Part shown: in pieces, positions 835 to 20,457 of the stretch
How positions within the stretch are numbered: position 1 is the stretch's first letter
How the letters are laid out: each line of letters opens with the position of its first letter
Virus record (IMG/VR): IMGVR_UViG_3300029286_003727
Span: 1-33,627 of that record
Source of the DNA: a virus
Reading direction: 5' to 3' (one strand)
DNA length: 33,627 nucleotides
Made by a program: the position numbers and the translations under genes
Notes under the pieces: generated by a model
The model's input: only the letters and a program-made list of their open reading frames with translations
The model's database searches: none
What the model was told of the DNA's origin: nothing

Positions 835-1541
835 ATTTAGAAACCATATCAATAGATCAAATTAACCCAGCAAAGTACAATCCGCGGCGCCCTTTACAGC
901 CAGGCGATCCGGAGTATGAAAAACTCAAAAAGTCCATAACAGAGTTCGACATAGTGGAACCGCTGATAATAAACAAGCGGGGAAATGTGCTGATAGGTGG
1001 CCACCAACGGCTGACAATTTTGAAGGACCTGGGTCGTACAGTGGTAGACGTTTCCATAGTTGACCTGCCCGAGGCAAAAGAGAAAGCGCTTAACCTGGCG
1101 CTGAATAAAACCGGCGGCCAATGGGATATGCCGATGTTAAAAGACCTGCTCCAAGAACTGGATACAGGTGAATTCGATATGGCCATCACTGGTTTTGACG
1201 AGGATGAAATCGAGGAGTTGATGACACAGGTTCATGCAGACGAGAAAGATTTAAAAGAGGCCATAGTATCTGAACGAGAATACGATGAGGCGGCCGACCG
1301 GGCCGACCGGATACTGCGTCGCATGACAGAGAAGATAAAAAACATATCGACCAGGAATCCCAGGGCGCTGAATGGAGCCATCGCAGTTATAGTGGACGCA
1401 GCCAAAGGCAACCAGATTCTATTCTTGGCGGATCCTAAACTCAATGACCTGGTAACAGAGATCCGCCGGCACGCTGAGGACGGCACCGCATCACCTATGG
1501 AACTCATACTCTATGAAACAGGCAATCGAAATAATAAATGA
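831..1541 (+). CDS. ParB/Srx-fold N-terminal domain protein
   Basis: The first about 110 residues of this 236-residue protein match the ParB/sulfiredoxin-like nuclease fold: 'INPAKYNPRRP' near 11-21, the substrate loop 'IGGHQRLTIL' at 55-64, and the 'LNKTGGQWD' segment at 91-99 that is typical of phage ParB-like proteins linked to DNA methyltransferases. The C-terminal 110 residues are charged and helical, with no domain I recognise. Such proteins act on or bind DNA; CTP binding or nuclease activity is known for relatives but is not shown here. Start at 831 is preceded by GGGGGGG. The gene overlaps the PAPS-reductase-like gene by 29 bases, so the two are probably translated together. Its ParB domain is a paralogue of the N-terminus of the methyltransferase at 2385. 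Confidence 0.8.
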   Translation: MNLETISIDQINPAKYNPRRPLQPGDPEYEKLKKSITEFDIVEPLIINKRGNVLIGGHQRLTILKDLGRTVVDVSIVDLPEAKEKALNLALNKTGGQWDMPMLKDLLQELDTGEFDMAITGFDEDEIEELMTQVHADEKDLKEAIVSEREYDEAADRADRILRRMTEKIKNISTRNPRALNGAIAVIVDAAKGNQILFLADPKLNDLVTEIRRHAEDGTASPMELILYETGNRNNK

Positions 1542-2388
1542 GGCATATAAGCGGCACCAGAATTCAGTCATCGCTTTCTCCGGGGGATCGGACTCCATAG
1601 TCCTGGTGGACATCATCTACAGACATACACCGCACCGGCCACCGCTGGTATTTGTGGACTCCGGCATGGAGCACCCGGCCACCCAGGACTTTGTTACTAA
1701 CGTTGCCCAGGCATACTCTACCGAGGTGAACATAGCCCGGCCGGCTAAACCTTACGCCGACCAATGGGCAGCTCAGGGCTGGCCGATGTTGGGAAAATTA
1801 GCAGCAAGGCAATGGATGCAAAAGCACAAAAGATTCGGTTACAAATTGGACGTATCATCCTGCTGCCGCAATATGAAGATATCGCCAGGACGCAAGTTGA
1901 CCAAACAACTTGGGGCAACCCTGCAATTCACCGGGCAACGCGGTGAGGCAGATGATGCACTCCGAGGACTGCGGGCACTAAAGGACACGGCAAACAAATA
2001 CCTGGAGGCGGATAAGTTAACGGTCTGCAATCCACTGCAGGGATGGACTGACACTATGATCAACCGATATAAAACAGAGAATAAATTGCCGCGGCACCCG
2101 TCCTGGGCAGAGGGAGCCATTACAATAGGCTGCCTTTATTGCGGAGGTGGCGCTCAATACACCAACTCAGGCTTCAAGATACTGAGGCATATACTGCCGG
2201 ATAAATGGAGAGAGTACATAGTGGGGATGAAGGCCGGCGAGATTATTTTATCGGTCAAGCACAATCGCCCACTGGATCACATCAGGGAAGCGGTTGAAAA
2301 GTTGGGAGGGCTTGATAAGTTAGCGGATACCCATCCTTGGATATTCGATTACCTATCATATCCCCCGCTCAAAGGTTACACCAAATGA
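1513..2388 (+). CDS. PAPS reductase/DndC-like PP-loop protein
   Basis: This 291-residue protein has the PP-loop ATP-binding motif SGGSDS at 23-28, the adenylylating-type 'TGQRGEADDALRG' segment at 140-152, and four cysteines arranged as Cys117-Cys118 and Cys207-x2-Cys210. That arrangement is known to ligate a [4Fe-4S] cluster in APS reductases and is also present in DndC, the phosphorothioation protein. The family either reduces adenylylated sulfate or uses ATP to activate a target for sulfur chemistry. In a phage, between two ParB-domain genes and a DNA methyltransferase, assimilatory sulfate reduction is unlikely; a role in DNA or nucleotide modification, or an IbrA-like regulatory role, is inferred. 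It overlaps both neighbours (29 bases upstream, ATGA downstream). Confidence 0.8.
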   Translation: MKQAIEIINEAYKRHQNSVIAFSGGSDSIVLVDIIYRHTPHRPPLVFVDSGMEHPATQDFVTNVAQAYSTEVNIARPAKPYADQWAAQGWPMLGKLAARQWMQKHKRFGYKLDVSSCCRNMKISPGRKLTKQLGATLQFTGQRGEADDALRGLRALKDTANKYLEADKLTVCNPLQGWTDTMINRYKTENKLPRHPSWAEGAITIGCLYCGGGAQYTNSGFKILRHILPDKWREYIVGMKAGEIILSVKHNRPLDHIREAVEKLGGLDKLADTHPWIFDYLSYPPLKGYTK

Positions 2389-3728
2389 ATGCACAGCTTA
2401 CCTGGCAAACTGAAAAACGAACCATCAACGATCTTGTTCCTTACCAGCATAACCCGCGGCGGTTAACCAAGGAGCAGGAGGACCAGCTGCGCAAATCCCT
2501 CGAGAAGTTTAACCTGGTGGAGATCCCTGCCATAAACACCAACGGAACCATCATAGCCGGGCATCAGCGCCTGGCCATCCTGAAGATACTGGGACGAGGC
2601 AATGAACAGATAGATGTCCGCGTGCCGAACAGGGAGCTGACGGAGCCGGAACTCAAGGAATATAACGTACGCTCAAACAAGAACACCGGCGAGTGGGACT
2701 TCCTGCTGTTGGCCAGCAACTTTGACCTGGACATGCTCAAAGATGTGGGATTCAATAGCGTGGAACTGGACCACATATTTAAACCAGGCTTCGGGTCGAA
2801 AGATGATGAGCTCCCGGAGTTAAGGCCCACCAACATAAAGCCAGGAGATATGTTCAAGCTGGGGAACCACCGTCTCCTATGCGGGGACAGCACCAACAAA
2901 GAACATATGGTGAAACTGATGGGAGGTGGTAAAGCCGAGATGATCTTTACCGACCCGCCTTACAACGTCGACTACAAGGGCGGGATGAACACCCACGGTC
3001 AGAATAAGCGTCATACCATAAAAAATGACCATATGGCACAGCCGGAATATTATCATTTCCTCTCGGCTTTCATAGAGCAGCTCATGCAAGTCTGCAACGG
3101 AGTGTTTTATATATGTATCGGCAATAGCCAGATGCACACACTCCGCAACGCATTTGAAAGCCAGGGCGGGCATTGGCAGACCTATATAATCTGGGTAAAA
3201 AACACATTCACCTTGAGCCGATCCGACTACCAGCATCAATATGAGGTGATTTTGTATGGGTGGAATAAGCAGATATCAAAGCATTACTTTATTGAAGACC
3301 GCAGCATCCCCACAGTATGGGAAGACCTGCGGGACATCAAAGCTAAATTCGATGGAGAGTACACAACAATAAAGTTCCAGGGTTTTGAAGTTAAGCTAAA
3401 GGGCCAGGTAGAAGGTGTGGTAAGCAAGAAAAAGCAGAAGACCGATATCTGGCGCTATGACAAACCCACCAAGAGCGCCGAGCACCCGACAATGAAACCC
3501 GTCATTATGATATGCGAGGCCATAGAGAACAGCTCGCACAGGGATGGCATTGTCTTGGACGTCTTTGGAGGTTCCGGATCGACACTCATAGCTTGTGAAA
3601 AGCTGGACCGCAAGTGCCTGATGATGGAACTGGACCCTGTTTATTGTGATGTGATAATTCAGAGGTGGGAGAACTTCACCGGTAAAACGGCAGAACAAAT
3701 TACAGAAGGCGTACCCGTCGAAGTGTAG
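2385..3728 (+). CDS. ParB-domain/site-specific DNA methyltransferase fusion
   Basis: Residues 1-130 form a ParB-like domain (HNPRRLTKEQ near 22-31, AGHQRLAIL at 58-66, SNKNTGEWD near 97-105). Residues about 145-435 form an amino-methyltransferase: catalytic DPPY at 190-193, the conserved HPTMKP segment, and the SAM-binding 'DVFGGSGSTL' at 392-401. DPPY before the SAM motif indicates a beta-class N6-adenine or N4-cytosine enzyme. The ATG at 2385 overlaps the previous stop (ATGA) and is preferred to an in-frame codon at 2337 inside the upstream gene; it gives 447 residues. No restriction endonuclease accompanies it, so it is probably a solitary phage methyltransferase protecting or marking phage DNA. 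Its 3' end overlaps the convergent zinc-ribbon gene. Confidence 0.9.
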   Translation: MNAQLTWQTEKRTINDLVPYQHNPRRLTKEQEDQLRKSLEKFNLVEIPAINTNGTIIAGHQRLAILKILGRGNEQIDVRVPNRELTEPELKEYNVRSNKNTGEWDFLLLASNFDLDMLKDVGFNSVELDHIFKPGFGSKDDELPELRPTNIKPGDMFKLGNHRLLCGDSTNKEHMVKLMGGGKAEMIFTDPPYNVDYKGGMNTHGQNKRHTIKNDHMAQPEYYHFLSAFIEQLMQVCNGVFYICIGNSQMHTLRNAFESQGGHWQTYIIWVKNTFTLSRSDYQHQYEVILYGWNKQISKHYFIEDRSIPTVWEDLRDIKAKFDGEYTTIKFQGFEVKLKGQVEGVVSKKKQKTDIWRYDKPTKSAEHPTMKPVIMICEAIENSSHRDGIVLDVFGGSGSTLIACEKLDRKCLMMELDPVYCDVIIQRWENFTGKTAEQITEGVPVEV

Positions 3729-3859
3729 ATCATTCCACCGGCTTTCATTTTGCGAGGTTTATCCCAATAGGGGCTGTTGCACTTAGGGCAAAACTTAGGC
3801 TTATTATCCGTGCGCGGTATCCAAACGTGACCGCATCGCAAGCATTCAAATCTCGGCAT
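3659..3859 (-). CDS. Small zinc-ribbon (rubredoxin-like) protein
   Basis: A 66-residue protein starts MPRFECLRCGHVWIPR and has two CxxC knuckles (Cys7-x2-Cys10 and Cys24-x2-Cys27, the second in FCPKCNSPYWDKPRK). This is a recognisable family of tiny zinc-ribbon proteins of unknown role found in bacteria, archaea and phages. AAAGGAG seven bases before the ATG supports the start. Residues after about 40 lack conservation cues and overlap 70 bases of the convergent methyltransferase gene, so the functional part is probably the first 38 residues. It is the last gene of the minus-strand cluster. Confidence 0.7.
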   Translation of the reverse strand: MPRFECLRCGHVWIPRTDNKPKFCPKCNSPYWDKPRKMKAGGMIYTSTGTPSVICSAVLPVKFSHL

Positions 3860-3931
3860 TACAAATCTCCTTTATTGGATTAACCTTGCCTGAACAGGGC
3901 AGGAACTGCGCTCCTGAACTGTGCTCGGTGG

Positions 3932-4114
3932 TTAGTCCGGTAGCCCGATAGAGTCGAGAAGCTTGGTCTCATGGGAAACGCTGTCGTACCCCATGCGGCG
4001 AATCTCCTCGAGCTTGGCCTGGGCTTCCTCTTTGGTGAAGGTGGACAGAACCCTGTGCCATTTGGCATTGTCCGTCCCACCGGTCTTGTAGATGATACTA
4101 TAGATTTTGGTCAT
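3932..4114 (-). CDS. Hypothetical 60-residue protein
   Basis: The start at 4114 is chosen because GGAGGGG lies four bases upstream; an in-frame codon at 4147 lacks this. The product begins MTKIYSIIYKTGG and contains a 'FTKEEAQAKLEEIRRMGY' helix, a pattern common in small phage proteins that combine two or three beta-strands with one helix. I do not recognise a specific family. It is part of the minus-strand string of small genes and separated from the next upstream gene by 25 bases, so it is presumably co-transcribed from the promoter at 5556-5584. Soluble and without cysteines. Confidence 0.65.
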   Translation of the reverse strand: MTKIYSIIYKTGGTDNAKWHRVLSTFTKEEAQAKLEEIRRMGYDSVSHETKLLDSIGLPD

Positions 4115-4139
4115 TGATCCCCTCCGTTTGGTTTGGTTA

Positions 4140-4373
4140 TTACGCATATTTCAAGTCACCGGGGAAAAGATAAACGCTGGTTTTTCCGGTTTGCATCCTG
4201 TAACCGTTGCCTTCTTCTTTTAACAACCAGGCGCCGGCCTTGCGGAATTTCTCGAGAGTTATTTTGGTAATGACAGTGCAGCGTGTATATGTGGGGATTA
4301 TCAACGTCCCGCCACATTCCAAGTGGTTAAAAGCCTGGACTAAGCTCTTTGGTGGTACTGGTTTGTATTCCAT
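4140..4373 (-). CDS. Hypothetical 77-residue protein
   Basis: Two in-frame ATG codons lie close together (4377-4379 and 4371-4373). AAAGGAG is two bases from the first and eight from the second, so 4373 is the better start. The protein begins MEYKPVPPKSLVQAFN and continues with a beta-rich segment (GGTLIIPTYTRCTVITK) and a basic 'LEKFRKAGAWLLKEEG' helix. No known family is evident. It belongs to the minus-strand small-gene cluster and shares its ribosome-binding cassette. Confidence 0.65.
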   Translation of the reverse strand: MEYKPVPPKSLVQAFNHLECGGTLIIPTYTRCTVITKITLEKFRKAGAWLLKEEGNGYRMQTGKTSVYLFPGDLKYA

Positions 4374-4409
4374 TCTCATGTCTCCTTTTATTATCCTTTT
4401 GCTTTGCAA

Positions 4410-4607
4410 TTACTCCAGCGTGACGGCGGGATACCCGAGCGACTCGTAGAAGTTGGCCAAGCATACCAGCGCTGTATTGACATTGGTCAAGAGGCGTCCT
4501 TCCTGAGATTGTGGCGGGACCCTGGCCATCAGTGCCGCGAGCTGAACCCGCATGTCTTCCTCGAACTTAAACCTTGTGTCAGTGGTGGCTTTCTTTTGGT
4601 CTATCAT
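4410..4607 (-). CDS. Hypothetical 65-residue helical protein
   Basis: The start at 4607 follows GAGGA five to six bases upstream and sits just inside the end of the previous gene's region (previous stop at 4619). The protein starts MIDQKKATTDTRF and is predicted mostly helical: a charged N-terminal helix, 'MRVQLAALMARVPPQSQEG', then 'NVNTALVCLANFYESLGY'. No domain recognised. Co-directional with seven other tiny genes. Confidence 0.65.
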   Translation of the reverse strand: MIDQKKATTDTRFKFEEDMRVQLAALMARVPPQSQEGRLLTNVNTALVCLANFYESLGYPAVTLE

Positions 4608-4618
4608 TACGTTCCTCA

Positions 4619-4825
4619 CTATTTCAAAATACGGTTATAAAGTTCAGCTTTAACGATGGTCTCTGTCAGCCCCGTGATCTTAGCCAGCATGCCGCTTTCG
4701 GCGTAGATAATATCGTCATAATCCGATCCGCCGAAACCATGCTCGATATAGGTGGCCGCCAGGTCAAGGATATCTTCGATAGCCAGTTTGTTGTTCTTGA
4801 TTTGATCGATTGATTTGTTGGTCAT
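4619..4825 (-). CDS. Hypothetical 68-residue acidic protein
   Basis: AAGGAGATATGGAAATG contains two possible ATG starts; the second (4823-4825) is eight bases from AAGGAG and is preferred. The product, MTNKSIDQIKNNKLAIED onward, is acidic and helical, with 'DYDDIIYAESGMLAKITG' in the middle. No family recognised. Its start cassette is identical over 17 bases to that of the gene at 5035-5280. Confidence 0.7.
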   Translation of the reverse strand: MTNKSIDQIKNNKLAIEDILDLAATYIEHGFGGSDYDDIIYAESGMLAKITGLTETIVKAELYNRILK

Positions 4826-4843
4826 TTCCATATCTCCTTAACC

Positions 4844-5017
4844 TTAGTCGGCGTATTCGTAACCCTGGCGATAGAGTCGTTCTGCGATGGCCGGTGTGCA
4901 TACCCAGAACTTGCCGTCGTCACCCAGGATTACCATGTGCATCTTGATGCAGTGGTAGGCGAACCCAAATGCGTTGCTCCTGCTGTTAAACCTGTAGACC
5001 TGATTCATAATTTTCAT
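4844..5017 (-). CDS. Hypothetical 57-residue protein
   Basis: A short minus-strand frame from ATG at 5015-5017 to TAA at 4844-4846 fills what would otherwise be a 200-base gap in the small-gene cluster. GGGAG lies eight bases before the ATG within the cassette GGGAGATGAGGAAATG that closely matches those of its neighbours. The protein starts MKIMNQVYRFNSRSNA and ends in RLYRQGYEYAD; it contains 'MVILGDDGKFWVCTPA', which resembles small phage proteins that echo a displayed value or modify a beta-hairpin. A second ATG at 5008 is possible. No family recognised. Confidence 0.65.
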   Translation of the reverse strand: MKIMNQVYRFNSRSNAFGFAYHCIKMHMVILGDDGKFWVCTPAIAERLYRQGYEYAD

Positions 5018-5034
5018 TTCCTCATCTCCCTAAT

Positions 5035-5280
5035 TTATTTAAAATACGGAAATTCAAGTACCTGTAATCCAGCCACGAACTCCTGGAGGTTGTATGACCT
5101 CTCAAGGAAAGCCGACAGCAGGATCGCTTCCGGTAAAGTAATCTGCTTGCTGTAAGCGCTATAGATGCGGTCGGTATCTGCGCCGTAGGAGTAGTAACCG
5201 GTGAAATCATCGCTGTTCTTAATCTCGTTGAAAATCCTTGCCAGTTTTTGTCCTTTTGTTTCTGCTAAATTCTGTTTCAT
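5035..5280 (-). CDS. Hypothetical 81-residue protein
   Basis: The start at 5280 is the second ATG of AAGGAGATATGGAAATG, eight bases from the Shine-Dalgarno core. The protein begins MKQNLAETKGQKLARIF and has the segments 'DDFTGYYSYGADTDRIY' and 'LPEAILLSAFLERSYNL'. No known domain. It is the second gene of the minus-strand transcript and has the same start cassette as the gene ending at 4825. Confidence 0.7.
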   Translation of the reverse strand: MKQNLAETKGQKLARIFNEIKNSDDFTGYYSYGADTDRIYSAYSKQITLPEAILLSAFLERSYNLQEFVAGLQVLEFPYFK

Positions 5281-5304
5281 TTCCATATCTCCTTTCTCAT
5301 TGTA

Positions 5305-5523
5305 TTAGGGCAGAACTATTATCCGGGCATGGGTTGCAAAGCCAACGGCCTGGCTTTCCTTGTCGCTCTTGGCAGCCTCTTGGCGGGCCCGTTTGCAGCA
5401 CTCGGCATAAGTTCCGCTGAATTGCCACTCGGTATTGCCTACCATGAAGAACCAAAGGCCGTGCCCTTTCGGTGATTTTCCGTGGCTGCCCTGGTATTTG
5501 ATTGTATCTATTTCCCGTTGCAT
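5305..5523 (-). CDS. Hypothetical 72-residue protein, first gene of minus cluster
   Basis: The start at 5523 follows AAGGAGATAAGGAAATG with eight-base spacing. The product begins MQREIDTIKYQGSHG and contains 'GLWFFMVGNTEWQFSGTY' followed by a helical 'AECCKRARQEAAKSDK' segment, a beta-beta-beta-helix look typical of very small phage proteins. No family recognised. It is the gene closest to the strong promoter at 5556-5584 and has a 5' untranslated leader of about 25 bases. Confidence 0.7.
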   Translation of the reverse strand: MQREIDTIKYQGSHGKSPKGHGLWFFMVGNTEWQFSGTYAECCKRARQEAAKSDKESQAVGFATHARIIVLP

Positions 5524-5536
5524 TTCCTTATCTCCT

Positions 5537-5548
5537 TAGATTAATCTA
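5537..5548. promoter_or_regulatory. Perfect 12-bp palindrome at the transcription start (operator candidate)
   Basis: TAGATTAATCTA is a perfect palindrome. It lies directly downstream of the -10 box of the minus-strand promoter, at the expected transcription start, which is a common place for a repressor site. A second inverted repeat, TAGC-ATA-GCTA, occupies 5560-5570 inside the promoter spacer. Binding is inferred only from symmetry and position. Confidence 0.4.
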
Positions 5549-5555
5549 TACGAAG

Positions 5556-5584
5556 ATAATAGCATAGCTATATAGGTATGTCAA
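5556..5584 (-). promoter_or_regulatory. Consensus sigma-70 promoter for the minus-strand small-gene cluster
   Basis: On the minus strand TTGACA (5584-5579) is separated by exactly 17 bases from TATTAT (5561-5556). Transcription would begin near 5549 and run through the eight small genes down to 3659. The -35 is a perfect match and the -10 matches five of six, so this should be a strong promoter active with host RNA polymerase without phage factors, suggesting early or lysogenic expression. On the plus strand of the same gap, TATAAT at 5596-5601 could be a -10 for the packaging genes, but no good -35 is present. Confidence 0.8.
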
Positions 5585-5642
5585 TAGGTTTATCGTATAA
5601 TTATTATTTATTTTTAAATACAAACAAGGCAGAGCTGATCAA

Positions 5643-6155
5643 ATGAAAGGACGTAAACCAAAGCCCACAAAGCTAAGAATAATTGAAGGCAACCGCGAGC
5701 ACCGGCCGATACCTGATAGGGAGCCAACCCCGGATCCAACCATCCCGACCTGCCCAGCATGGTTAAGGGCAGAGGCCAAGCAGGAATGGAAGCGCATGTG
5801 CCCGCTGCTGCAAGGGATGGGATTACTAACGCGGGTGGACCGTGCCGCCCTGGCCGGGTACTGCCAGTCCTATGCCAAATGGCAGGAGGCAGAGGAATTC
5901 ATATCCAAGCACGGCATGACGTATCAGTTCCCTAAGAAGGACGAAACCGGGAATATCGTCTCGATGTATATCGCTCCTTTTCCACAGGTGTCGATTGCCC
6001 GGGCCTGCCTGGAGCAGATCAGATCCTTCTGCTCGGAGTTCGGATTGACCCCCAGTTCGCGGGCACGTATGACCTTACCGAGTGACAAGCAATCCGATTC
6101 CTTTGATGCCTTACTTAAATTCTGCAACGAAAAACCGCTAAAAGCTGGCGTATGA
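5643..6155 (+). CDS. terS: Terminase small subunit, P27 family
   Basis: A 170-residue protein with the hallmark opening of the P27-type small terminase (MKGRKPKPTKLRIIEGN), the 'CPAWLRAEAKQEWKRM' segment at about 38-53 and 'LGLTPSSRARM'-like sequence near 145. It recognises phage DNA at the packaging site and loads the large subunit. It overlaps the large subunit gene by the usual ATGA. The Shine-Dalgarno is weak (AAGGCAG some distance upstream); the leader is A/T-rich and contains a TATAAT at 5596-5601. It is the first gene of the late structural operon. Confidence 0.93.
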   Translation: MKGRKPKPTKLRIIEGNREHRPIPDREPTPDPTIPTCPAWLRAEAKQEWKRMCPLLQGMGLLTRVDRAALAGYCQSYAKWQEAEEFISKHGMTYQFPKKDETGNIVSMYIAPFPQVSIARACLEQIRSFCSEFGLTPSSRARMTLPSDKQSDSFDALLKFCNEKPLKAGV

Positions 6156-7696
6156 TAAACCATGACAGGGCCAACATTGCCAAGACGTTCATTGAGCTAC
6201 TCAAACATACCAAAGGGGAATACGCCGGTAATAACTTCAAGCTAACCGAATGGCAATGGAAGGATATAATCCAACCACTGTTCGGGACAATCAATAGTGA
6301 TGGCACCAGGCAATACCGGACCTGCTTCATTGAGCTGCCGCGTAAAAACGGGAAGTCAACGCTGGCAGCGGCGATCGCCCTGCTGCTGACATTTGCTGAC
6401 GGGGAAGCAGGTTCTGAGATCTACGGGGCCGCCAATGACCGTGACCAAGCGTCTCTGGTTTTCAACGAGGCGGCGGCCATGGTGCGCCAGGCGCCAGGGT
6501 TATCCAAGATCTCAAGGGTGATTGATTCCACAAAACGCATTGTCTATTACGCCAGGAATTCCTTTTACCGGGCCATCTCAGCCGAGGCCTATACTTCCTG
6601 GGGTTACAACGCCCATGGAATAATTTATGACGAACTCCATGCAGCGCCGAATCGCGAACTGTGGGATGTGTTGACCACGTCCCAGGGCGCCAGACGTCAA
6701 CCGCTAATCGTAGTTATCACAACCGCGGGATATGACCGGAATTCTATTTGCTGGGAGTTGCACGATTACGCTTGCAAAGTCAAGAAAGGAATCATTAAAG
6801 ACAAAACCTTCTTGCCGGTGATTTATGCAGCCGAGGAAGATGATAATTGGCTGGATGAAAAGGTATGGAGGAAGGCCAATCCCGCCCTCGGTGACTTCCG
6901 GCAAATCTCTGAAATTCGCATGCTTGCCAAAAGAGCCCAGGAAACGCCAGCGCTCGAGATGACCTTCAGGAGGCTCTATTTAAATCAGTGGGTCAACTCA
7001 GCCGAACGATGGCTGTCGATGGATGCCTGGGACGCCTGCAACGGCCAGGTGGACATGGAGAGCCTGCAGGGCCGCACCTGCTACGCCGGCCTTGACCTGG
7101 CCAGCACCACGGATTTGACTGCACTGGCACTGGTTTTTGCAGCAGATGATGGAAGCTGTGACGTCTTAACTTATTTCTGGATTCCCGGAGATACGGCGGT
7201 CCAAAAGGAAAGAAAGGACCGTGTACCTTACCAGGCCTGGGCCAAAAAGGGACTGATCACACTGACCGATGGCAATGTCATTGACTATAAATACATTCAA
7301 CACACACTCGAACAGTTAAGGGAAAAGTACGATATCGCCGAGATAGCCTTCGACCGCTGGGGTGCCACCAAGTTGAGCCAGGACTTAACGGACGCAGGAT
7401 TTCTAATGGTGCCCTTCGGCCAGGGATTCGCGTCGATGTCAGCACCGACCAAGGAACTGATGAACTTAGTCTTGAGCAAGAAGATCAGACACGGCGGCAA
7501 TCCAGTTCTTAGATGGAACTGCGACAACCTGGTGGTCAGGACTGATCCGGCCGGCAACATCAAGCCGGACAAGGAGAAATCCACCCAGAAGATCGATGGC
7601 TGCGTTAGCCTTATTATGGCCATTGACCGGGCCAGCCGACACAGCAAACTGGTTGATACTTCTATTTATGAAGATCAGGGCATGGTTACCCTTTGA
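6152..7696 (+). CDS. terL: Terminase large subunit
   Basis: A 514-residue packaging motor. The ATPase domain has Walker A RKNGKST at 64-70, Walker B 'GIIYDELH' with Asp160-Glu161, and the coupling motif 'VVITTAGYD' at 187-195. The C-terminal RNase H-like nuclease shows three acidic positions: Asp315 in AGLDLAS, Asp401 in IAFDRWG and Asp482 in KIDGCVS. It belongs to the Terminase_1 group used by HK97-like phages. It cuts concatemeric DNA and drives it through the portal. The start overlaps terS (ATGA) and the stop overlaps a TTG start of the following HNH gene. Confidence 0.96.
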   Translation: MINHDRANIAKTFIELLKHTKGEYAGNNFKLTEWQWKDIIQPLFGTINSDGTRQYRTCFIELPRKNGKSTLAAAIALLLTFADGEAGSEIYGAANDRDQASLVFNEAAAMVRQAPGLSKISRVIDSTKRIVYYARNSFYRAISAEAYTSWGYNAHGIIYDELHAAPNRELWDVLTTSQGARRQPLIVVITTAGYDRNSICWELHDYACKVKKGIIKDKTFLPVIYAAEEDDNWLDEKVWRKANPALGDFRQISEIRMLAKRAQETPALEMTFRRLYLNQWVNSAERWLSMDAWDACNGQVDMESLQGRTCYAGLDLASTTDLTALALVFAADDGSCDVLTYFWIPGDTAVQKERKDRVPYQAWAKKGLITLTDGNVIDYKYIQHTLEQLREKYDIAEIAFDRWGATKLSQDLTDAGFLMVPFGQGFASMSAPTKELMNLVLSKKIRHGGNPVLRWNCDNLVVRTDPAGNIKPDKEKSTQKIDGCVSLIMAIDRASRHSKLVDTSIYEDQGMVTL

Positions 7697-8274
7697 GTGA
7701 TATTACAAGTGGACTTAATAAACAGTGCAATAAATGTAAATTAACCCTGCCGCTCGCCTCATTTTATAAGCACAAAACAGGTAAGTTTGGTGTTAGCCAC
7801 CTGTGTAAAGAGTGTCATAAGATAGCCGAAAAAAAGCGATATCACGACCAATACAGAAACTGTGAAGATTATAAAAAGGGGCGGAAAGCGTATGCCCACG
7901 AATATCATCGGTTAAATAGGAAACGGGAAAATTTACGCGTGTCTATGGACCATAGAAAGGAACGTGCTCTGTGTATTCAATATTACGGTGGGAAGTGCGC
8001 TTGTTGTGGTGAGAGTAGATTTGAGTTTTTGGCGATTGACCATGTAAATGGAGGAGGTTGCAAACATCGTGGGCAGGTTGGTGGGAAAGTAAGTCGCTGG
8101 TGTGTTAAGAATAATTTCCCTCTTGGGTTTAGGGTACTCTGCCATAACTGCAATATGTCGCTGGGTCTATATGGATATTGTCCGCATACAGAACCTGCAA
8201 AGCAAGTAATGGTCCCCGTGATATTGCTGGCACCGAAGAACACTAACTTCGGCACAACGACGCTGGTCATTTAA
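7693..8274 (+). CDS. HNH endonuclease between terL and portal
   Basis: A 193-residue protein with an N-terminal zinc site (Cys12-x2-Cys15, Cys38-x2-Cys41 in a 'QCNKCKLTLPLASFYKH' context) and a C-terminal HNH domain: Cys102-x2-Cys105, Asp116-His117 in AIDHVNGGG, and Cys150-x2-Cys153 in LCHNCNMSLGLYGYC. The start is a TTG overlapping the terL stop (TTGA); no other start fits and no good Shine-Dalgarno is visible, so translation is probably coupled to terL. The gene is more A/T-rich than its neighbours, as expected of a homing endonuclease. The last about 25 residues (hydrophobic) do not look conserved. HNH genes near terminases may also assist packaging. Confidence 0.8.
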   Translation: MSDITSGLNKQCNKCKLTLPLASFYKHKTGKFGVSHLCKECHKIAEKKRYHDQYRNCEDYKKGRKAYAHEYHRLNRKRENLRVSMDHRKERALCIQYYGGKCACCGESRFEFLAIDHVNGGGCKHRGQVGGKVSRWCVKNNFPLGFRVLCHNCNMSLGLYGYCPHTEPAKQVMVPVILLAPKNTNFGTTTLVI

Positions 8275-10312: not shown

Positions 10313-13300
10313 TCAGTAATACAATTTGCGCCTGGCAACCATGATCACCGCCAACATAAGGGAAAGGGCTATTAGCGACAGGCTGATAACTAAGATAATG
10401 TTAGGATCAATTGCATCGTCAACCATGAAGCTTCCGGCCTGGGTTCCACCTATGTAAACGGTATAAATTCCCGGCTCATTTCTGGTCACCGTGAAGTAAA
10501 CCGGCCGGTTGCCGCCGCTTTCCACCGTGATGCCCTGGCTGGATTCCTCCTCCCCATTGACATACAGCTTAATCCTCATTGTCCCGTTCACCGTCCCCCT
10601 GTTGGCTATGTCGGCGGTTACCGTTACAGGTGTCCCCGGTGCCACTTTTGACTCAGATAATGACGCGCTCTGAATTTGGATGTTGGGAAGTTGCACCGGT
10701 TGTGTCGTTATTGCAGTTCCTGCCACGGAAGAGCCGTGTGAGGTTGGCGCATTCGTGCCTATTAATGGGTTTGCCGGCGTGGGAATCGGTGTGGGTGTAG
10801 GTGTTGATGGAACAGCAACACCGCCCGGGTCTACTATTATCCCGTTAACCAGGCCGTCTGAGTCTCCCAGTCCCCCGTCCGTGATCTGTATGGTGATAGT
10901 CTTGTTATGGAGGCTGGTTATGGGTATTTGGAACCAGCCGCGGGCCAGCTGGTATTTTAAATATACTATGTTGGTTGGTAATTGTTGGGGGAAAGTCATT
11001 GTGATGGTCACGGTCGCTCCAGGCTCTATATCAGAGATGGTGAAACCGCAGAGGCCGTGTATGAAAATGTAGCCTCCAGGTTGGTTTGGAAAGCTGCCTG
11101 CTGGGACGGCAATAGCGGCGGTGAAATTGCCCCCGTCGCTTTCTAGTGTCAGCATACCTGAATTGGTTGAAGTCGTTATGCTAAATGGTTTGCCGGATGT
11201 TGTGAAGCTCTTCTCTTCTCCGTAAACTGTGTCGTCGCCAACTGCTTTAGCGCGGTAATAGTATGTGGTCCCGCGTGCCAGGCCTATAACCTTGTATTCG
11301 AAATTGCCCGGCTCAGTCAGCTCACTTACAGGCGTTTCGCCGGAATAGGTGTTTGGCATAATCCCATATTGGAAGGTGACGTTACAACTTGACGATGATC
11401 CCAGTGAATTCAAGACGCCATGTAGTTTGGCCGAATTGGTGGTGATATTGGTAGCGGGGTTGGTGGTAACTGAAGGTGGCATTGGCGTAAGAGATATGTT
11501 TAACGTTTCCCCCATTTCCTTATAAAGTTCTAAGTTCATTGGATCAATTGCGCCACACACCATGACGGCGTAGCCTGCCTTGATAACGCCCGTGACGACA
11601 AATTTAACTGATCCGAAAAGAGCGGAATAAATTATTTGAGTGGCCTGCGTCGTGCCATCGTCCAGTATTATCGTATTTTCACTATCAATGGAGGGCGTAA
11701 GTGCGGCCCCGCTGGCGGATAGCAAGTCAGTAACGAATTGGGTCGAGGCATCTTCAAAATTAGTGGCCGGCCGGACAGCTATATAAAGCCTGTCTCTGCC
11801 AGTTCCTATTGCATAGAAAACAACACCGGATACAGTTGATTGGGATATTGCCCATGCCGACGGAAACTTTACAGAAAAGCCATATAAATCGGATGTATAT
11901 GTTGCATATTCATATGGTGGATGTGGTGTCGGGGCAGTAGTGAAACTCACCTCAGCGCCGTATACTGTATTGCCATTGGCCGTAGCCTGGGCCCGGTAAT
12001 AATAGGTTTGTCCTGGCTTTAATACCGTCACGTTATAGGTGAAGTTGTCAGTAGCAGTCTTTAGTTGGGGAGTTGTATTATCGGTATAGGTCCCAGTAGA
12101 TACCCCCCATTGGAATGACACCGTGGCATTATCGAATGTGCCCAGAGATAGGGTGCCGTTTAATGTAGCCGAAGTAGTGGTGATATTGGTGGCCGGGTTG
12201 GTGGCTATTGTTAGCAGTGTGGTGTCCCAGAGCACCGCTACACCTCTGGTCAGCAATATTGGGATTTGTACATTAACGGAAGTCTGGCTGAGGGGATTGC
12301 CTCTCAGGTTCACACTATCTCCCGTAGCCAGTCCTGTATTATTTACCAGTGGAGTGATATCGCTTATCCTGTTATTCTGCAAATCGAGAGATATGAGGTT
12401 GGTAAGTTCGATCAGTGGTGTTAGGTCAAGGTCGTAAATCTGACTACCTGCTAGTTCAAGATTGGTTAAGTTAGTGAGTCTTGCCAGCGGCGCCAGTTCA
12501 CTTATCTGGTTGCCGCTCAGGCCAAGTATTGCTAGCTTGGTGAGTCCGGCCAGTGGCGTAAGGTTGCCTATCTGGTTATTGAACAGTCCGAGTTGTCGGA
12601 GGTTGGTGAGACCTGCTAGTGATGTCAGGTTGCTTATCTGGTTAGCATTTAGGCCGACATATGTAAGGTTGGTGAGACCCTCCAGCGGTGACAGGTCGCT
12701 TATCTGGTTGTCATCCAGATAGAGATATGTGAGGTTGGTGAGACCTGCCAGCGGTGTCAGGTTGATTATCTGGTTAGAATTTAGGCCGATATATGTAAGG
12801 TTAGTGAGGCTGGCCAGTAGTGTCAGGTCGCTTATCTGGTTGCCGCCCAGCCCGATATATGTAAGATTAATGAGGCCGGTCAGAGGTGAGAGGTCGCTTA
12901 TCCGGTTTTCGTATAAATGGAGAGCGGTAAGCTTGGTAAGACTGGCCAGTGGTGTCAGATTGCTTATCTGGTTGAGGGTTAGTTGAAGAAATGAAAGATT
13001 AATGAGGTCGGTCAGAGGTGCCAGGTCGCTTATTCGGTTTTCGTTAAGCTGAAGCGTTGCAAGGTTGGTGAGGCCGGACAGTGGCGCGAGATCGCTTATC
13101 TGGTTGGACCACAGTCCAAGATCTGTAAGGTTGGTGAGGCCGTCCAGCGGTGATAGGTCGCTTATCTGGTTATGGTGCAGGTAGAGAGTAGTGAGGTTGG
13201 TACAATACTCAAGTCCCGTAAGGTTGATGATTCCTTTAGTATTGGCATTCAACGACGTCAAACCGGTAAGGTTAGAGGCATAGATGTCCCCCGTCGGTTT

Positions 13301-15418
13301 GCTAATGGCCACTCTTATAGCAGCCTCCAGGTTGGCATCGGGAAAAGTGACAGTGGTATCCGTGGTAAAGCTCAATTCAGATCCATATACGGTATTGCCA
13401 TTTGCGGTGGCCTGTGCCCGGAAATAATAAGTGGCCGCAGGGGTCAAATCCGTAAGGTTGTGCGAGAATATGCCAATACCAGTCTTTAGCTGTGGAGTGG
13501 TATTATCGCTAAAAATTCCGGGAGAGGTTCCCCACTGAAATGATACTGTGACATTATCGAATGTACCCAATGAAGATAAGTTGCCGTTCAATGTAGCTGC
13601 AGTGGCAGTGATATTCGTGGTGGGGGTCGTTGAAACCCATGGTCCCAAGTTCCAGTCGAGCACGTTGCACTGGCCATAGTCGTTATTTCCCACGGCGACC
13701 ACGCGGCCGTCGATCTTGAGCCCAACGGTGTATGTGTCGTCAGCTGCCACTTGGGTGATGCTCGTCCAGGTTCCCACGTTGCACTGGCCGGCACTATTAT
13801 CTCCCACGGCGACCACGCTGCCGTCGGATTTCAGCCCCACGGTATGTGCCCCGCCATCCACCTGAGTGATGCCTATCCAGGAGCTCACGTCTCCCCCTCC
13901 CGTGGCGACCACGCTGCCATCCGACTGAAGCCCCAAGGTCTGTATGTATCCAGTGGCCACCTGGGTGATGCCTGTCCAAGTGCTCACGTTACACTCGTTC
14001 CACTCGTTACCTCCCACAGAGACAACGCTGCCGTCGGCCTTGAGCCCAACGGTGTGAACGCATCCTGCAGACACTTGGGTAATACCTGTCCAGGAGCCTA
14101 CGTTGCACTCGCCATAGGGATCGTTTAATCCCGTGGCGACCACGCTGCCGTCGGATTTCAGCCCCACTGTGTGATAATATCCTGCGGACACCTGGGTAAT
14201 GCCTGTCCAGGAGCCTACGTTGCACTGGCCATAGTCGTTCCTTCCCACGGCGACCACGCTGCCGTCGATCTTGAGCCCAACGGTGAAACTAAATCCTGCT
14301 GACACCTGGGCAATGCCTGTCCAGGAGCCTACGTTGCACTGGCCATAGTCGTTCCTTCCCACAGCAACTACGCTTCCGTCGGCCTTGAGACCCACAGTGT
14401 GCCCAGGGTAGCCTGCGGCCACCTGGGTGATGCCAGTCCAGGAGACTACGTTGCACTGAAGATAGTCGTTATCTCCCACGGCAACCATGCTGCCATCGGA
14501 CTTTAGTCCCACGGTATGTCCCCCGGGTCCCCCGTGACTCCCACCTTCGGCCGTGGCCACCTGGACAATGCCTGTCCATGCGCCTGTGTTACACTGGCCG
14601 TAGTTGTTATAACCCACGGCGATCACGCTGCCGTCGGACTTCAGCCCCACAGTGTAAATGTAGCCTGCGGCTACCTGGGTGATGCCCGTCCACGAGCTCA
14701 CGTCGCACTGGCCCCAGCGGTTATCTCCAGCAGCGACCACACTGCCGTCGGACTTCAGCCCTATGGTGTGCCCCCAATTTGCGGCCACCTGGGTGATGCT
14801 CGTCCAAGTGCCCACATTGCATTGGCCCTCCAAGTTCCTTCCGACGACGACTACGCGGCCGTCGGACTTGAGCCCTACGGTGTGTCTCCACCCTGCAGCT
14901 ACCTGGGTGATGCCTGTCCACGAGCTCACGTCGCACTGGCTTTCGTCGTTCTCTCCAACCGCGACCAAACTGCCATCGGATTTCAGCCCCACGGTGTATC
15001 GCCATCCTGCAGCCACTTGGGTGATGCCCGTCCAGGCCCCCACGTCGCACTGGCCGTAGGTGTTTTCACCCACGGCGATCACGCTGCCGTCGGACTTTAG
15101 TCCAACGGTGTAATACCATCCTGCGGCCACCTGGGTGATGCCCGTCCAGGAACTCACGTTGCATTGGCCCTCGCTATTCCGTCCAAAAGCTACCACAGTG
15201 CCATCGGACTTTAGCCCCACGGTGTGTTCCCCTCCTGAGGCTACCATGGGAGTATAGGGTACCCTAGTCGCAGAGAGCACCCTAGTCGCTGACGAGACAG
15301 CCCCACGGTCAACGTTGGCCTGGACGTAGCTTGGCGGCATTACGGCTGCTCCCATCCAGGCTATTACGACCACCGCCATCACTACCGAGAGGAATCTCCA
15401 TGCCCTTAACCCACCCAT
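10313..15418 (-). CDS. Giant secreted RCC1/LRR/Fn3 surface protein with C-terminal membrane anchor
   Basis: A 1701-residue protein, antisense to the phage late genes. From the N-terminus: signal peptide (hydrophobic 14-29, cleavage near 34); fourteen short RCC1-type repeats of about 38 residues at 56-589 (TVGLKSDGSVVAVG...QCNV); Fn3-like domain about 590-690; internalin-type LRR cap and thirteen 22-residue LRRs to about 1029; Fn3-like domain; PsbP-like domain ('YGFSVKFPSAWAI'); third Fn3-like domain; a domain like 'choice-of-anchor U'; Pro/Thr linker; CARDB-like Ig domain; one transmembrane helix and an ARRKLYY tail. ATG at 15418 with GAGGG eight bases upstream is preferred to TTG at 15433. 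It should be anchored outside the cell and bind proteins or glycans. No phage family contains it; it is probably host-derived cargo. A TACAAT at 15517-15512 is a weak promoter candidate. Confidence 0.88.
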   Translation of the reverse strand: MGGLRAWRFLSVVMAVVVIAWMGAAVMPPSYVQANVDRGAVSSATRVLSATRVPYTPMVASGGEHTVGLKSDGTVVAFGRNSEGQCNVSSWTGITQVAAGWYYTVGLKSDGSVIAVGENTYGQCDVGAWTGITQVAAGWRYTVGLKSDGSLVAVGENDESQCDVSSWTGITQVAAGWRHTVGLKSDGRVVVVGRNLEGQCNVGTWTSITQVAANWGHTIGLKSDGSVVAAGDNRWGQCDVSSWTGITQVAAGYIYTVGLKSDGSVIAVGYNNYGQCNTGAWTGIVQVATAEGGSHGGPGGHTVGLKSDGSMVAVGDNDYLQCNVVSWTGITQVAAGYPGHTVGLKADGSVVAVGRNDYGQCNVGSWTGIAQVSAGFSFTVGLKIDGSVVAVGRNDYGQCNVGSWTGITQVSAGYYHTVGLKSDGSVVATGLNDPYGECNVGSWTGITQVSAGCVHTVGLKADGSVVSVGGNEWNECNVSTWTGITQVATGYIQTLGLQSDGSVVATGGGDVSSWIGITQVDGGAHTVGLKSDGSVVAVGDNSAGQCNVGTWTSITQVAADDTYTVGLKIDGRVVAVGNNDYGQCNVLDWNLGPWVSTTPTTNITATAATLNGNLSSLGTFDNVTVSFQWGTSPGIFSDNTTPQLKTGIGIFSHNLTDLTPAATYYFRAQATANGNTVYGSELSFTTDTTVTFPDANLEAAIRVAISKPTGDIYASNLTGLTSLNANTKGIINLTGLEYCTNLTTLYLHHNQISDLSPLDGLTNLTDLGLWSNQISDLAPLSGLTNLATLQLNENRISDLAPLTDLINLSFLQLTLNQISNLTPLASLTKLTALHLYENRISDLSPLTGLINLTYIGLGGNQISDLTLLASLTNLTYIGLNSNQIINLTPLAGLTNLTYLYLDDNQISDLSPLEGLTNLTYVGLNANQISNLTSLAGLTNLRQLGLFNNQIGNLTPLAGLTKLAILGLSGNQISELAPLARLTNLTNLELAGSQIYDLDLTPLIELTNLISLDLQNNRISDITPLVNNTGLATGDSVNLRGNPLSQTSVNVQIPILLTRGVAVLWDTTLLTIATNPATNITTTSATLNGTLSLGTFDNATVSFQWGVSTGTYTDNTTPQLKTATDNFTYNVTVLKPGQTYYYRAQATANGNTVYGAEVSFTTAPTPHPPYEYATYTSDLYGFSVKFPSAWAISQSTVSGVVFYAIGTGRDRLYIAVRPATNFEDASTQFVTDLLSASGAALTPSIDSENTIILDDGTTQATQIIYSALFGSVKFVVTGVIKAGYAVMVCGAIDPMNLELYKEMGETLNISLTPMPPSVTTNPATNITTNSAKLHGVLNSLGSSSSCNVTFQYGIMPNTYSGETPVSELTEPGNFEYKVIGLARGTTYYYRAKAVGDDTVYGEEKSFTTSGKPFSITTSTNSGMLTLESDGGNFTAAIAVPAGSFPNQPGGYIFIHGLCGFTISDIEPGATVTITMTFPQQLPTNIVYLKYQLARGWFQIPITSLHNKTITIQITDGGLGDSDGLVNGIIVDPGGVAVPSTPTPTPIPTPANPLIGTNAPTSHGSSVAGTAITTQPVQLPNIQIQSASLSESKVAPGTPVTVTADIANRGTVNGTMRIKLYVNGEEESSQGITVESGGNRPVYFTVTRNEPGIYTVYIGGTQAGSFMVDDAIDPNIILVISLSLIALSLMLAVIMVARRKLYY
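12332..13186 (-). repeat. Leucine-rich-repeat coding tandem array (66-bp units)
   Basis: Thirteen consecutive units within the surface protein gene. Eleven are exactly 22 residues (66 bases) with the pattern LxLxxNQISDLxPLxGLTNLTx, followed by one of 24 and a terminal partial unit. The DNA repeats visibly (recurrent 'cttatctggtt' and 'gttggtgag' blocks on the plus strand). The array forms the curved internalin-type solenoid. Such near-identical units can expand or contract by recombination. Confidence 0.85.
13652..15253 (-). repeat. Fourteen RCC1-type tandem repeats (about 114-bp units)
   Basis: Fourteen units of 33-46 residues, mostly exactly 38 (114 bases), each with 'TGITQVAAG..HTVGLKSDGSVVAVG.N.YGQCNV..W'. 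Fourteen equals two seven-bladed propellers. All but unit 12 keep the Cys of QCNV or a variant; unit 7 carries a Gly-rich insertion of eight residues; unit 12 is shortened by five. Units 8 and 9 have the same 'VAVGRNDYGQCNVGSW' end, suggesting recent duplication. Confidence 0.88.
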
Positions 15419-15577
15419 AAACTTGTCCCTCAATTTGAATTGCGCCCAAGTAGCCAGACAGAAGTAACCAACAAAACCATAACCACGTCTATACGAATCT
15501 TAATGCCAAATATTGTACACCTTTTCGCAGAATAGCACGACACATAGCCAAGCCAAAACTTCTCTTAGGAGGTCACA

Positions 15578-17524: not shown

Positions 17525-18715
17525 TCAATACAGGTCGCCTTTATGTAGCAAATCACAGAATTTTTCATAGGGCATGACCTCCACTGCGCCAAACTGGTAA
17601 GAGCGATCACCAGAATATACACCGATTAGTCTATCTGCTTTCACTCCACTTGCGGAACCCAGCGAGACTAATGGCTTGTTCCAGGTGGTATTCCATTTAT
17701 CCGCCCGTTTCACTTCAACGGCCACTATGTGGGGGACGTTAGCTGAGGTACGCCGCGATGTTTCGATGATGAAATCCACTTCTACACCGGCAGGTGTCTT
17801 GTAGTAAAACAATGGCCGCTTTTTGCGGCTGACCTCGTTGTAAACACGCAGCTCATGATAAACCAGTGTTTCCATTGCAAATCCTTCCCAGGGGCGGTCG
17901 ACCGGATCATGCAGCCACCCTGCTGCCGCACGAGCAACACCGGGATCAAACCAATAGAATTTAGGGTGCGCTGCTTCACGTACTTTTACACCTGCCCGCC
18001 AGGAAGGCAGGAAATGTCCCAGCAACGTATCAACAATTATGGAAAAGTATGAATCCACTGTGCTGCGGGCTGTTGCCGCATCGCGGGCAATGTTCTGCAT
18101 ATTGACCACCTGACCATTGAGCTGGCCGGCAATGGACATAAACCGCATGAAAGGAGGTACATTGCGTAGCAAACCTTCCTGCCTGATTTCCTCGCGGATA
18201 TGTGTGTCAAGATATGCAGCAAGTATATCGGGCGCCTGTGCCGGTTCACGAAGGACCATGGGCAGTAAACCCCACTCCAGCGAGTTGGATAAATTGAAGG
18301 CCTTTCCCAACTCAACAGCGGAGAAGCTTTCCATATTCAATGTGATAGCGCGTCCGGCCAACAGGTTAGCGCCTCCTCGGCGCAACTTGCGGGCCGACGA
18401 TCCGCACAGGGCAAACCTCCAGTTACGAGATTCTGTCAATCTGTGTACCTCGTCGAGCAGGGCGGGTATTTTCTGTATCTCGTCCAGTACAATCCAGTCA
18501 CCATCAGGCCGGCCGGCGGCCATGGCCTCCAACCGGTGCGGGTCACGGGATAGCTCAAGAAATAGGGACGCATCAAGTAAATCCAGGTAGAGGGCATCAG
18601 GCAGTACATGCCTGAGCCAGGTACTCTTGCCTGTACCCCGTGGACCAAACAGGAAGAACGATACCTCCGGACACTTGAGCAATCTGCGTATATATGGCCT
18701 GCTTGTTGAACTCAT
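17525..18715 (-). CDS. AAA ATPase with DUF4143 C-terminal domain
   Basis: A 396-residue protein of the widespread ATPase/DUF4143 family. Walker A GPRGTGKST is at 24-32, Walker B WIVLDEIQ at 74-81, and 'CGSSARKLRRGGANLLAGRA' follows as sensor region near 104-123. The C-terminal half contains 'GVEVDFIIET' and 'VAVEVKRADKW', the E-V-D...E-V-K pattern of a PD-(D/E)XK-like nuclease fold. The family function is unsettled; members are scattered mobile accessory genes in bacteria and archaea. It is antisense between the capsid and methyltransferase genes and has its own palindrome-containing control region, so it is probably a moron expressed independently of the lytic programme. Confidence 0.88.
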   Translation of the reverse strand: MSSTSRPYIRRLLKCPEVSFFLFGPRGTGKSTWLRHVLPDALYLDLLDASLFLELSRDPHRLEAMAAGRPDGDWIVLDEIQKIPALLDEVHRLTESRNWRFALCGSSARKLRRGGANLLAGRAITLNMESFSAVELGKAFNLSNSLEWGLLPMVLREPAQAPDILAAYLDTHIREEIRQEGLLRNVPPFMRFMSIAGQLNGQVVNMQNIARDAATARSTVDSYFSIIVDTLLGHFLPSWRAGVKVREAAHPKFYWFDPGVARAAAGWLHDPVDRPWEGFAMETLVYHELRVYNEVSRKKRPLFYYKTPAGVEVDFIIETSRRTSANVPHIVAVEVKRADKWNTTWNKPLVSLGSASGVKADRLIGVYSGDRSYQFGAVEVMPYEKFCDLLHKGDLY

Positions 18716-18868: not shown

Positions 18869-19444
18869 ATGGACGTTTTAGTATTACCAGAAAGCAATAG
18901 CCTATATAAATTGGAGGGGCTAATCAGGTTCGGGGAAGGACTGCGCCTGTCCTACCTGGCATCCAAAGTTAAAAGCGGTGTGATCGTTGAGATCGGCAGC
19001 TTCAAAGGTAAATCAACCAGCTTCTTAGCGGCCGGCAGCCGGCACGGGAATAATATCCCCGTATATGCCGTGGATACCTGGGACCTCAGAGAACAGTATG
19101 GCCAGCAAAAGTACCAGGCTAAAGAAACCCTGGAGGCCTTTCATCGGCAGACACAGCCCTATTCCAAATTAATCACGGCTGTCAGGGGATTTTCCCAGGA
19201 GGTGGCCAAGACCTGGGATAAAGACATAGGTTTGCTGTTCATCGACGGCTGCCACTGGTACAAAGAGGCCTGGGCGGACTACCAGAGTTGGCAGAAGTTC
19301 ATCCCCGTAGGTGGAGTTATTGCCCTGCATGATTACCAGAACCCCAAAATCCAGGCGGTAGTTGAGCGTATAAAGAGCCATGAGCAATGGGTAAACTGGG
19401 AGGTTTACGGCAGGGTGATCTCAGCTCAGCGGGTTGCCAAATGA
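18869..19444 (+). CDS. Class I SAM-dependent methyltransferase (Methyltransf_24-like)
   Basis: A 191-residue enzyme with SAM-binding 'VEIGSFKGKST' at 40-50, the acidic strand-2 end 'VYAVDTWD' at 65-72, 'LLFIDGCHWYKEAWADYQSW' at 122-141 and 'GGVIALHDY' at 148-156. This matches small-molecule or sugar O-methyltransferases of the Methyltransf_24 type. No Shine-Dalgarno is obvious; an in-frame stop just upstream fixes the ATG. It overlaps the glycerophosphotransferase-like gene by ATGA, so the pair is probably one functional unit, likely decorating a virion or cell-surface polymer (inference). Confidence 0.8.
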   Translation: MDVLVLPESNSLYKLEGLIRFGEGLRLSYLASKVKSGVIVEIGSFKGKSTSFLAAGSRHGNNIPVYAVDTWDLREQYGQQKYQAKETLEAFHRQTQPYSKLITAVRGFSQEVAKTWDKDIGLLFIDGCHWYKEAWADYQSWQKFIPVGGVIALHDYQNPKIQAVVERIKSHEQWVNWEVYGRVISAQRVAK

Positions 19445-20457
19445 AACACCGGAAGATCGACTTCTATGCCAGGCAGCGCCACTTCATTGACCACCTGGTG
19501 CCGATCTACAGACAGATACCAGAAACAAACAGAGGTCAATTCATAGTCACCACAAATGAGCTGCTCAAATACGCTGCTTCCATAGACGTCCAGGCGATCA
19601 GACTCAGCTCTTACTTAGATACCATGACTCCTCCCGAACTAAGGGGGCCACTGGTGGTAGCCTCCATGGCCTTCCCCATCAAGATGCTGACACCCAGACG
19701 CAAACTTGTTTTACTCAACCACGGTGCCGGCCAATCCTTCGTCGACAACCGGCACGTCAGCTATGCCGGGGGTAAAGGTAGAGGGTTAACTTATTTATTC
19801 ATCGAGCCCGGAGAGCATCCGGCCTCAAAGGACGCCGAAGCCTATCCCGGGTCAAAGATAGCCATTGTGGGCTGTCCCAAGCTGGACAGTTGGCATTTGA
19901 AGCCTAAGAAAAAGCGTAGCAATCCTCCCGTGGTGGCCATTAGCTTTCACTGGGAGTGCAAGGTTGCCCCGGAGACGCGTAGCACGCTGTCGCATTACCG
20001 GGGCATCATCCCGCAGCTATCCCGCTGGAACAGGACAGACGAAGTAGAAATACTCGGCCACGGTCACCCCACCATATGGACCACACTGAGACCGATGTGG
20101 GAGCGTTACGGTATCGAGCCGGTAGCCAATTTCGACGAAGTAATGGAGCGAGCCGACGTCTATGTCTGTGACCAGATGTCCACCCTTTACGAGTTTGCCT
20201 CGCTGGACAGACCCGTAGTGGTGCTCAATGCGCCATGGTACCGGCGTGATATCGAGCACGGGTTGAGGTTCTGGGAATGCGCCGATGTTGGCGTTAACTG
20301 CAACCAGCCGGAAGATTTCATTCCATCCATCCAGAAGGCACTCAAGGATACACAAGCACAAAAGAGAAAACGGCATACAGCCGTTCAGAAAGTCTACAAA
20401 TATGCTGATGGCCGTGCTGCCGAGAGGGCGGCCCAGGCTATCATGGAGGTTCTATGA
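19441..20457 (+). CDS. CDP-glycerol glycerophosphotransferase-like transferase
   Basis: A 338-residue protein; the ATG at 19441 overlaps the previous stop and is preferred to an in-frame ATG at 19387 inside the methyltransferase. The fold is that of GT-B-type CDP-glycerol:poly(glycerophosphate) transferases: 'KLVLLNHGAGQSF' near 86-98, 'VVAISFHWECKV' midway, 'EVEILGHGHPTIW' and the donor-binding stretch 'ERADVYVCDQMSTLYEFASL' followed by DRPVVVLN. In bacteria this family makes teichoic-acid-like polymers. In the capsid-connector interval of a phage it may add glycerol phosphate or sugar to capsid, tail or host surface to alter adsorption; the substrate is unknown. Confidence 0.75.
   Translation: MKHRKIDFYARQRHFIDHLVPIYRQIPETNRGQFIVTTNELLKYAASIDVQAIRLSSYLDTMTPPELRGPLVVASMAFPIKMLTPRRKLVLLNHGAGQSFVDNRHVSYAGGKGRGLTYLFIEPGEHPASKDAEAYPGSKIAIVGCPKLDSWHLKPKKKRSNPPVVAISFHWECKVAPETRSTLSHYRGIIPQLSRWNRTDEVEILGHGHPTIWTTLRPMWERYGIEPVANFDEVMERADVYVCDQMSTLYEFASLDRPVVVLNAPWYRRDIEHGLRFWECADVGVNCNQPEDFIPSIQKALKDTQAQKRKRHTAVQKVYKYADGRAAERAAQAIMEVL

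Follow-up and report, generated by a model that had tools for sequence, protein, structure and literature searches.

Eight small antisense genes in a variable methyltransferase-terminase slot of an uncultured tailed phage: a probable accessory operon

Why does a tailed phage carry a row of very small genes between a DNA methyltransferase gene and its terminase genes, on the strand opposite to both, and what might their products do? The question is raised by a window of 33,627 nucleotides, which is a whole IMG/VR record (33.6 kb), classed as linear and possibly a fragment. The first-pass annotation had placed eight minus-strand ORFs of 57-81 codons in the methyltransferase-terminase interval at 3659-5523 and read them as an accessory cluster under a consensus-type promoter. 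The eight ORFs were found exactly there and are listed, together with the borders of the slot and the candidate regulatory sites, in Table 1.

Table 1. Genes and candidate regulatory sites of the methyltransferase-terminase slot in the window
Feature	Coordinates	Strand	Remarks
ParB-like/DNA methyltransferase gene (ParB-methyltransferase fusion)	2337..3728	+	left border of the slot
g8	3659..3859	-	66 aa; zinc ribbon
g7	3932..4114	-	60 aa; without known family
g6	4140..4379	-	79 aa; homologue on a Methylobacterium plasmid
g5	4410..4607	-	65 aa; without known family
g4	4619..4825	-	68 aa; without known family; phrog_26146 at E=0.005 only
g3	4844..5017	-	57 aa; family motif GDDG(R/K)FWV...GYE(Y/W)AD
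g2	5035..5280	-	81 aa; without known family
g1	5305..5523	-	72 aa; opens the operon; without known family
12-bp perfect palindrome TAGATTAATCTA	5537-5548	.	over the expected transcription start; possible operator
Promoter-like site TTGACA-17-TATTAT, TG before the -10	5556..5584 (5584..5556)	-	sequence match
18-bp dyad, one mismatch	5563-5580	.	in the promoter spacer; possible operator
TerS (terminase small subunit) gene	5643..6155	+	right border of the slot; followed by TerL

The genes are tightly packed, and each of the eight is preceded by a Shine-Dalgarno-like site of the AGGA/GGAG/GAGG type. When ORFs must reach 57 aa, have such a site and not overlap, the minus strand of the cluster region contains eight and the plus strand one; dinucleotide shuffles (n=1000) contained 0.48 such ORFs on average and three at most, compared with the eight observed on the minus strand. 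Codon usage, scored with the record's long genes as training set and compared with false frames, is coding-like in g1-g7, where 0-5% of the false frames reach an equal score, and atypical in g8, where 33% do so. The latter was accepted as a gene on the strength of its 13 viral homologues, in place of codon usage; it converges with the methyltransferase gene, and the two share 70 nt at their 3' ends. No paralogy was detected among the eight proteins, acidic and basic small proteins adjoin one another in the cluster, and the window gave no hit in searches with Rfam or for tRNA genes.

None of the eight proteins reaches a curated family cut-off in Pfam, PHROGs or NCBIfam, and the earlier remark that only the zinc ribbon resembles a known family proved correct, with g8 alone resembling such ribbons. 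This protein has two CxxC knuckles and a CNSPYWD(K/R)PR tail, which together give the motif CxxCG..W.P..C..CNSPYWD(K/R)PR, and no Pfam model reaches its cut-off with it. The 13 matching viral loci are 46-88% identical over the matched part; conservation covers residues 1-41, and the overlap with the methyltransferase 3' end falls in the remaining part. In the relative L009, a g8-like zinc ribbon lies beside two BRO-N antirepressors and two HTH regulators (locus L184, 8190-12267). A homologue of g6 (53% identity) is a hypothetical protein adjoining a ParB-family gene on the Methylobacterium indicum plasmid pVL1_3 (L183, 3989-4231), and an AlphaFold model of g6 alone had a pLDDT of 45. For g7, a weak match was obtained in Rhizobium phage RHph_I4 (35%, E=0.02). 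Scans of IMG/VR with g1, g2, g4, g7 and a g6 profile returned no homologues, and blastn of the cluster region against phages returned no matches. Pooled tblastn of all eight proteins against phages and plasmids gave only one weak g7 and one g6 match, and the pooled proteins found nothing but one weak zinc ribbon in 299 genomes of the phylum of Syntrophomonas.

Homologues of g3 occur in the same slot of the relatives L002/L003 (65% identical) and in the unrelated phages L164 and L165 (52-55%). A dN/dS of about 0.3 against L003 indicates that g3 is under purifying selection. In L164, which has a GpA-type terminase and is otherwise unrelated to the window, the homologue lies in an antisense methyltransferase-terminase block; this block (4191-7404) contains amidoligase, GATase, g3-homologue, DUF6900 and HARE-HTH genes. 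In L165, the homologue is the first in a block of small genes that diverges from the portal gene and is preceded by TTGACA-17-TAGTAT. Structure prediction, proposed by the first-pass annotation for comparison with anti-defence proteins, gave a confident AlphaFold model of g3 (pLDDT 90, beta-alpha-beta-beta-alpha), to which a fold search of PDB and BFVD found no significant match. PrimPol occupied the top PDB fold rows at E>1 and was not used. The protein represents an uncharacterised small family whose recurrence in such blocks of unrelated phages, and beside domains associated with modified DNA, recommends it for functional tests.

The content of the slot was compared among relatives, defined as fetched loci with a TerL 75-82% identical to that of the window. 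The portal, protease and capsid proteins of L002/L003 and L004 are 95-98% identical to those of the window (capsid 98% and portal 96% in L002/L003, which carry a RAMA-domain gene and the g3 homologue); at the DNA level, these flanking head genes on the right-hand side of the slot show 89-93% identity to L002. To the left of TerL, the block has been exchanged relative to the same phages, with 38-42% identity for the methyltransferase and 44% for TerS. The exchanged module spans 2337-6200, and left of about 6200 there is no DNA alignment with L002 except at g3. In L003, the slot holds, antisense, a gene for a 152-aa RAMA-domain protein, whose tail appears zinc-ribbon-like by eye (CxxC pairs), and the g3 copy; in L007, it holds one antisense RAMA/DUF2924-like gene; in L005 and L009, it measures 8 nt and contains no genes. 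The comparison of related phages that had been suggested earlier, made here by a slot survey and by aligning the DNA with that of L002-L009, reveals different cargo or none: close relatives lack the cluster genes or have others in their place, and the content is not conserved in the manner of virion components. For most of the eight cluster proteins, no relatives showing the exchange directly were found. It was possible to place both the methyltransferase and TerS in 56 loci, and among these a wholly antisense cargo is confined to the window, L002/L003 and L007. The closest terminase relatives outside this clade are Firmicutes prophages (51-56% identity in a genome scan), and the cargo of the Firmicutes prophages in the survey is mostly co-directional with the late genes.

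The consensus-type promoter reported by the first-pass annotation, TTGACA-17-TATTAT, is present as a sequence match and is the best and sole 11/12 sigma-70 match in the whole 33.6-kb record, which would provide the cluster with a promoter of its own. The -35 element of the window, CTATTGAC.T, is common to L002, L003, L004, L007 and L008, and CTATTGAC(A/T)T stands 58-61 nt before the first antisense start codon in all six carriers, with differing cargo; the relatives that share the element lack a good -10. A cargo slot whose antisense promoter element stays while the cargo changes makes it simple to gather accessory genes from uncultured phages. The palindrome that had been noted at the transcription start, TAGATTAATCTA, is indeed present and perfect, at about +2 to +13 relative to the expected start, but such a sequence is easily met by chance: 12% of composition-matched 120-nt shuffles hold a 12-bp palindrome, and six others occur elsewhere in the record. 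Because of this chance frequency, it was dropped as a strong argument, and it may be regarded as a possible, statistically weak, operator. The 18-bp spacer dyad occurs in 7% of shuffles and both dyads together in 3%. No intrinsic terminator for the cluster was found in the window; a terminator of its own is usual for a moron, not obligatory. In L003 and L007, the RAMA gene is followed by a strong, terminator-like hairpin.

Other genes of the record also differ between these phages. Compared with L002 and L004, the window has three single-gene insertions (HNH, RCC1/LRR and AAA/DUF4143 genes). The HNH/endonuclease VII-like gene, probably a homing endonuclease, directly follows TerL (7693-8274, plus strand) and is absent from both relatives. 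In the portal-protease interval, an antisense gene (10313-15433, minus strand) encodes a 1706-aa RCC1/LRR/CARDB-repeat protein with an apparent signal peptide and a C-terminal membrane segment (by eye); in L002 and L004 there is a short spacer instead, with flanks of 89-93% DNA identity. Another antisense gene, encoding an AAA_14/DUF4143 ATPase, follows the major capsid gene (17525-18715, minus strand) and is likewise an insertion when compared with L002 and L004. Methyltransf_24 and CDP-glycerol glycerophosphotransferase-like genes occupy the interval from capsid to head-tail genes (18869-20457, plus strand). Upstream of the slot, a PAPS-reductase-like gene (phrog_424; 1513-2388, plus strand) is flanked by ParB-like and ParB-methyltransferase genes and has a 63% identical copy in L005.

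We consider it probable that the eight genes form an accessory (moron) operon, lying antisense in a variable methyltransferase-terminase slot of a tailed phage. The accessory character suggested by the first-pass annotation is supported by the variability of the slot, the orientation against the late genes, the promoter match and the non-virion content. Apart from the cluster, the record has two clear minus-strand genes, the RCC1/LRR and AAA/DUF4143 genes; both are cargo as well, which supports this reading. Loci antisense to lytic genes and equipped with their own promoter were characterized by RNA-seq as typical of prophage morons (PMC7067206). Judging by the gene order in L009, the slot probably lies at the junction of early/modification and late modules. 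With a sigma-70-type promoter of its own and a direction of transcription opposite to that of the late genes, the cluster could be on while the late operon is off, which makes the earlier proposal of expression in early infection or lysogeny plausible; a repressor bound at the promoter dyads would perhaps damp it. No integrase or repressor was recognised in the record, which may be a fragment. L009 carries a Gp3-like recombination directionality factor, BRO antirepressors, Cro/CI-like HTH genes and a DnaB helicase, and this content makes temperate kin likely, so that a temperate lifestyle of the window phage is suggested only through this relative. The predicted products are eight small, unrelated and probably soluble proteins, a cargo that related phages would exchange and whose most likely targets are the host cell, competing phages or host defences.

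A role in host takeover, anti-CRISPR or anti-restriction had originally been proposed. We regard as a possibility, and a tentative one, that the cluster is an anti-defence island, several of whose small proteins would block CRISPR, restriction or abortive-infection systems at an early stage of infection. The proteins are small, unrelated and fast-diverging, they stand behind a strong-looking promoter and adjoin a DNA methyltransferase, and relatives place in the same slot a RAMA domain, which is associated with restriction/modification proteins; clustering is, moreover, a known habit of anti-defence genes (PMC7648647). On the other hand, the originally proposed role gained no support from searches of PHROGs, Pfam, NCBIfam and PDB sequences, which matched no known inhibitor (PHROGs and PDB sequences no known Acr homologue), and PADLOC, with its defence-system models, returned nothing for the cluster proteins. 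Acr proteins often lack homology. An HTH (aca) gene marks acr loci; no Aca-like HTH family was found in any of the eight proteins, and g3 is without a fold match. From position and size, an anti-defence role is a reasonable guess, and no result is specific to it.

It is rather unlikely that the cluster serves self-regulation of the phage, with the zinc ribbon and its partners controlling late transcription or packaging and the divergent g1/TerS promoters acting as an early/late switch. Zinc ribbons are often nucleic-acid-binding, the g8-like ribbon of L009 has BRO antirepressors as neighbours, the cluster and TerS diverge from an intergenic stretch that contains dyads, and a weak plus-strand promoter match overlaps the minus-strand -35. 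However, close relatives whose head genes are nearly identical lack these genes or have others in their place, and the slot of L005 and L009 is 8 nt long and devoid of genes, which makes an essential switch unlikely there. Toxin-antitoxin or superinfection-exclusion pairs, which are common moron cargo, would fit the adjacent acidic and basic small proteins, but no toxin or antitoxin domain was recognisable in the eight proteins with Pfam, NCBIfam or PADLOC, and we judge this explanation improbable. Lower still we place a counter-defence slot linked to DNA modification, in which the small proteins and the phage methyltransferase would together protect or read phage DNA, and in which phages of unrelated terminase types would keep antisense g3-family blocks beside a ParB-methyltransferase. 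This proposal stems from the recurrence of RAMA and HARE-HTH, putative readers of modified DNA, in the slot adjoining the methyltransferase; the cluster of the window itself has neither domain. Despite the few homologues and the atypical codon usage of g8, it is hardly credible that the ORFs are artefacts of a stretch that does not code or has decayed, for the shuffle test, the codon usage of the other genes and the dN/dS of g3 speak for coding, and for g3, g6 and g8 homologues already refute it.

The preferred reading, an accessory operon, can be set beside several known systems. Like anti-defence clusters (acr-aca loci), the window has small unrelated genes behind a strong-looking promoter on a mobile element, replaced between relatives; unlike them, its cluster includes neither a known inhibitor nor a gene for an HTH regulator. 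Prophage morons of the ST64B STMMW_20121 type (PMC7067206) share with it their own promoter, the direction opposite to the late genes and a cargo not common to close relatives, whereas the window differs from them in its eight tiny genes in a row, in having no terminator found and in encoding no known moron protein. Firmicutes prophages of the HK97 type use the same methyltransferase-terminase slot, likewise with variable content, such as, by eye, an amidoligase-like and a gamma-glutamylcyclotransferase-like gene in L011, and four small ORFs in L012; their cargo mostly runs with the late genes, that of the window against them, and no recognised family is held in common, none of the eight cluster proteins matching an amidoligase. 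The cluster of L164 belongs to a different phage, with a GpA-type terminase and with enzymes and larger genes as cargo, yet like that of the window it is an antisense methyltransferase-terminase block that includes the g3 family.
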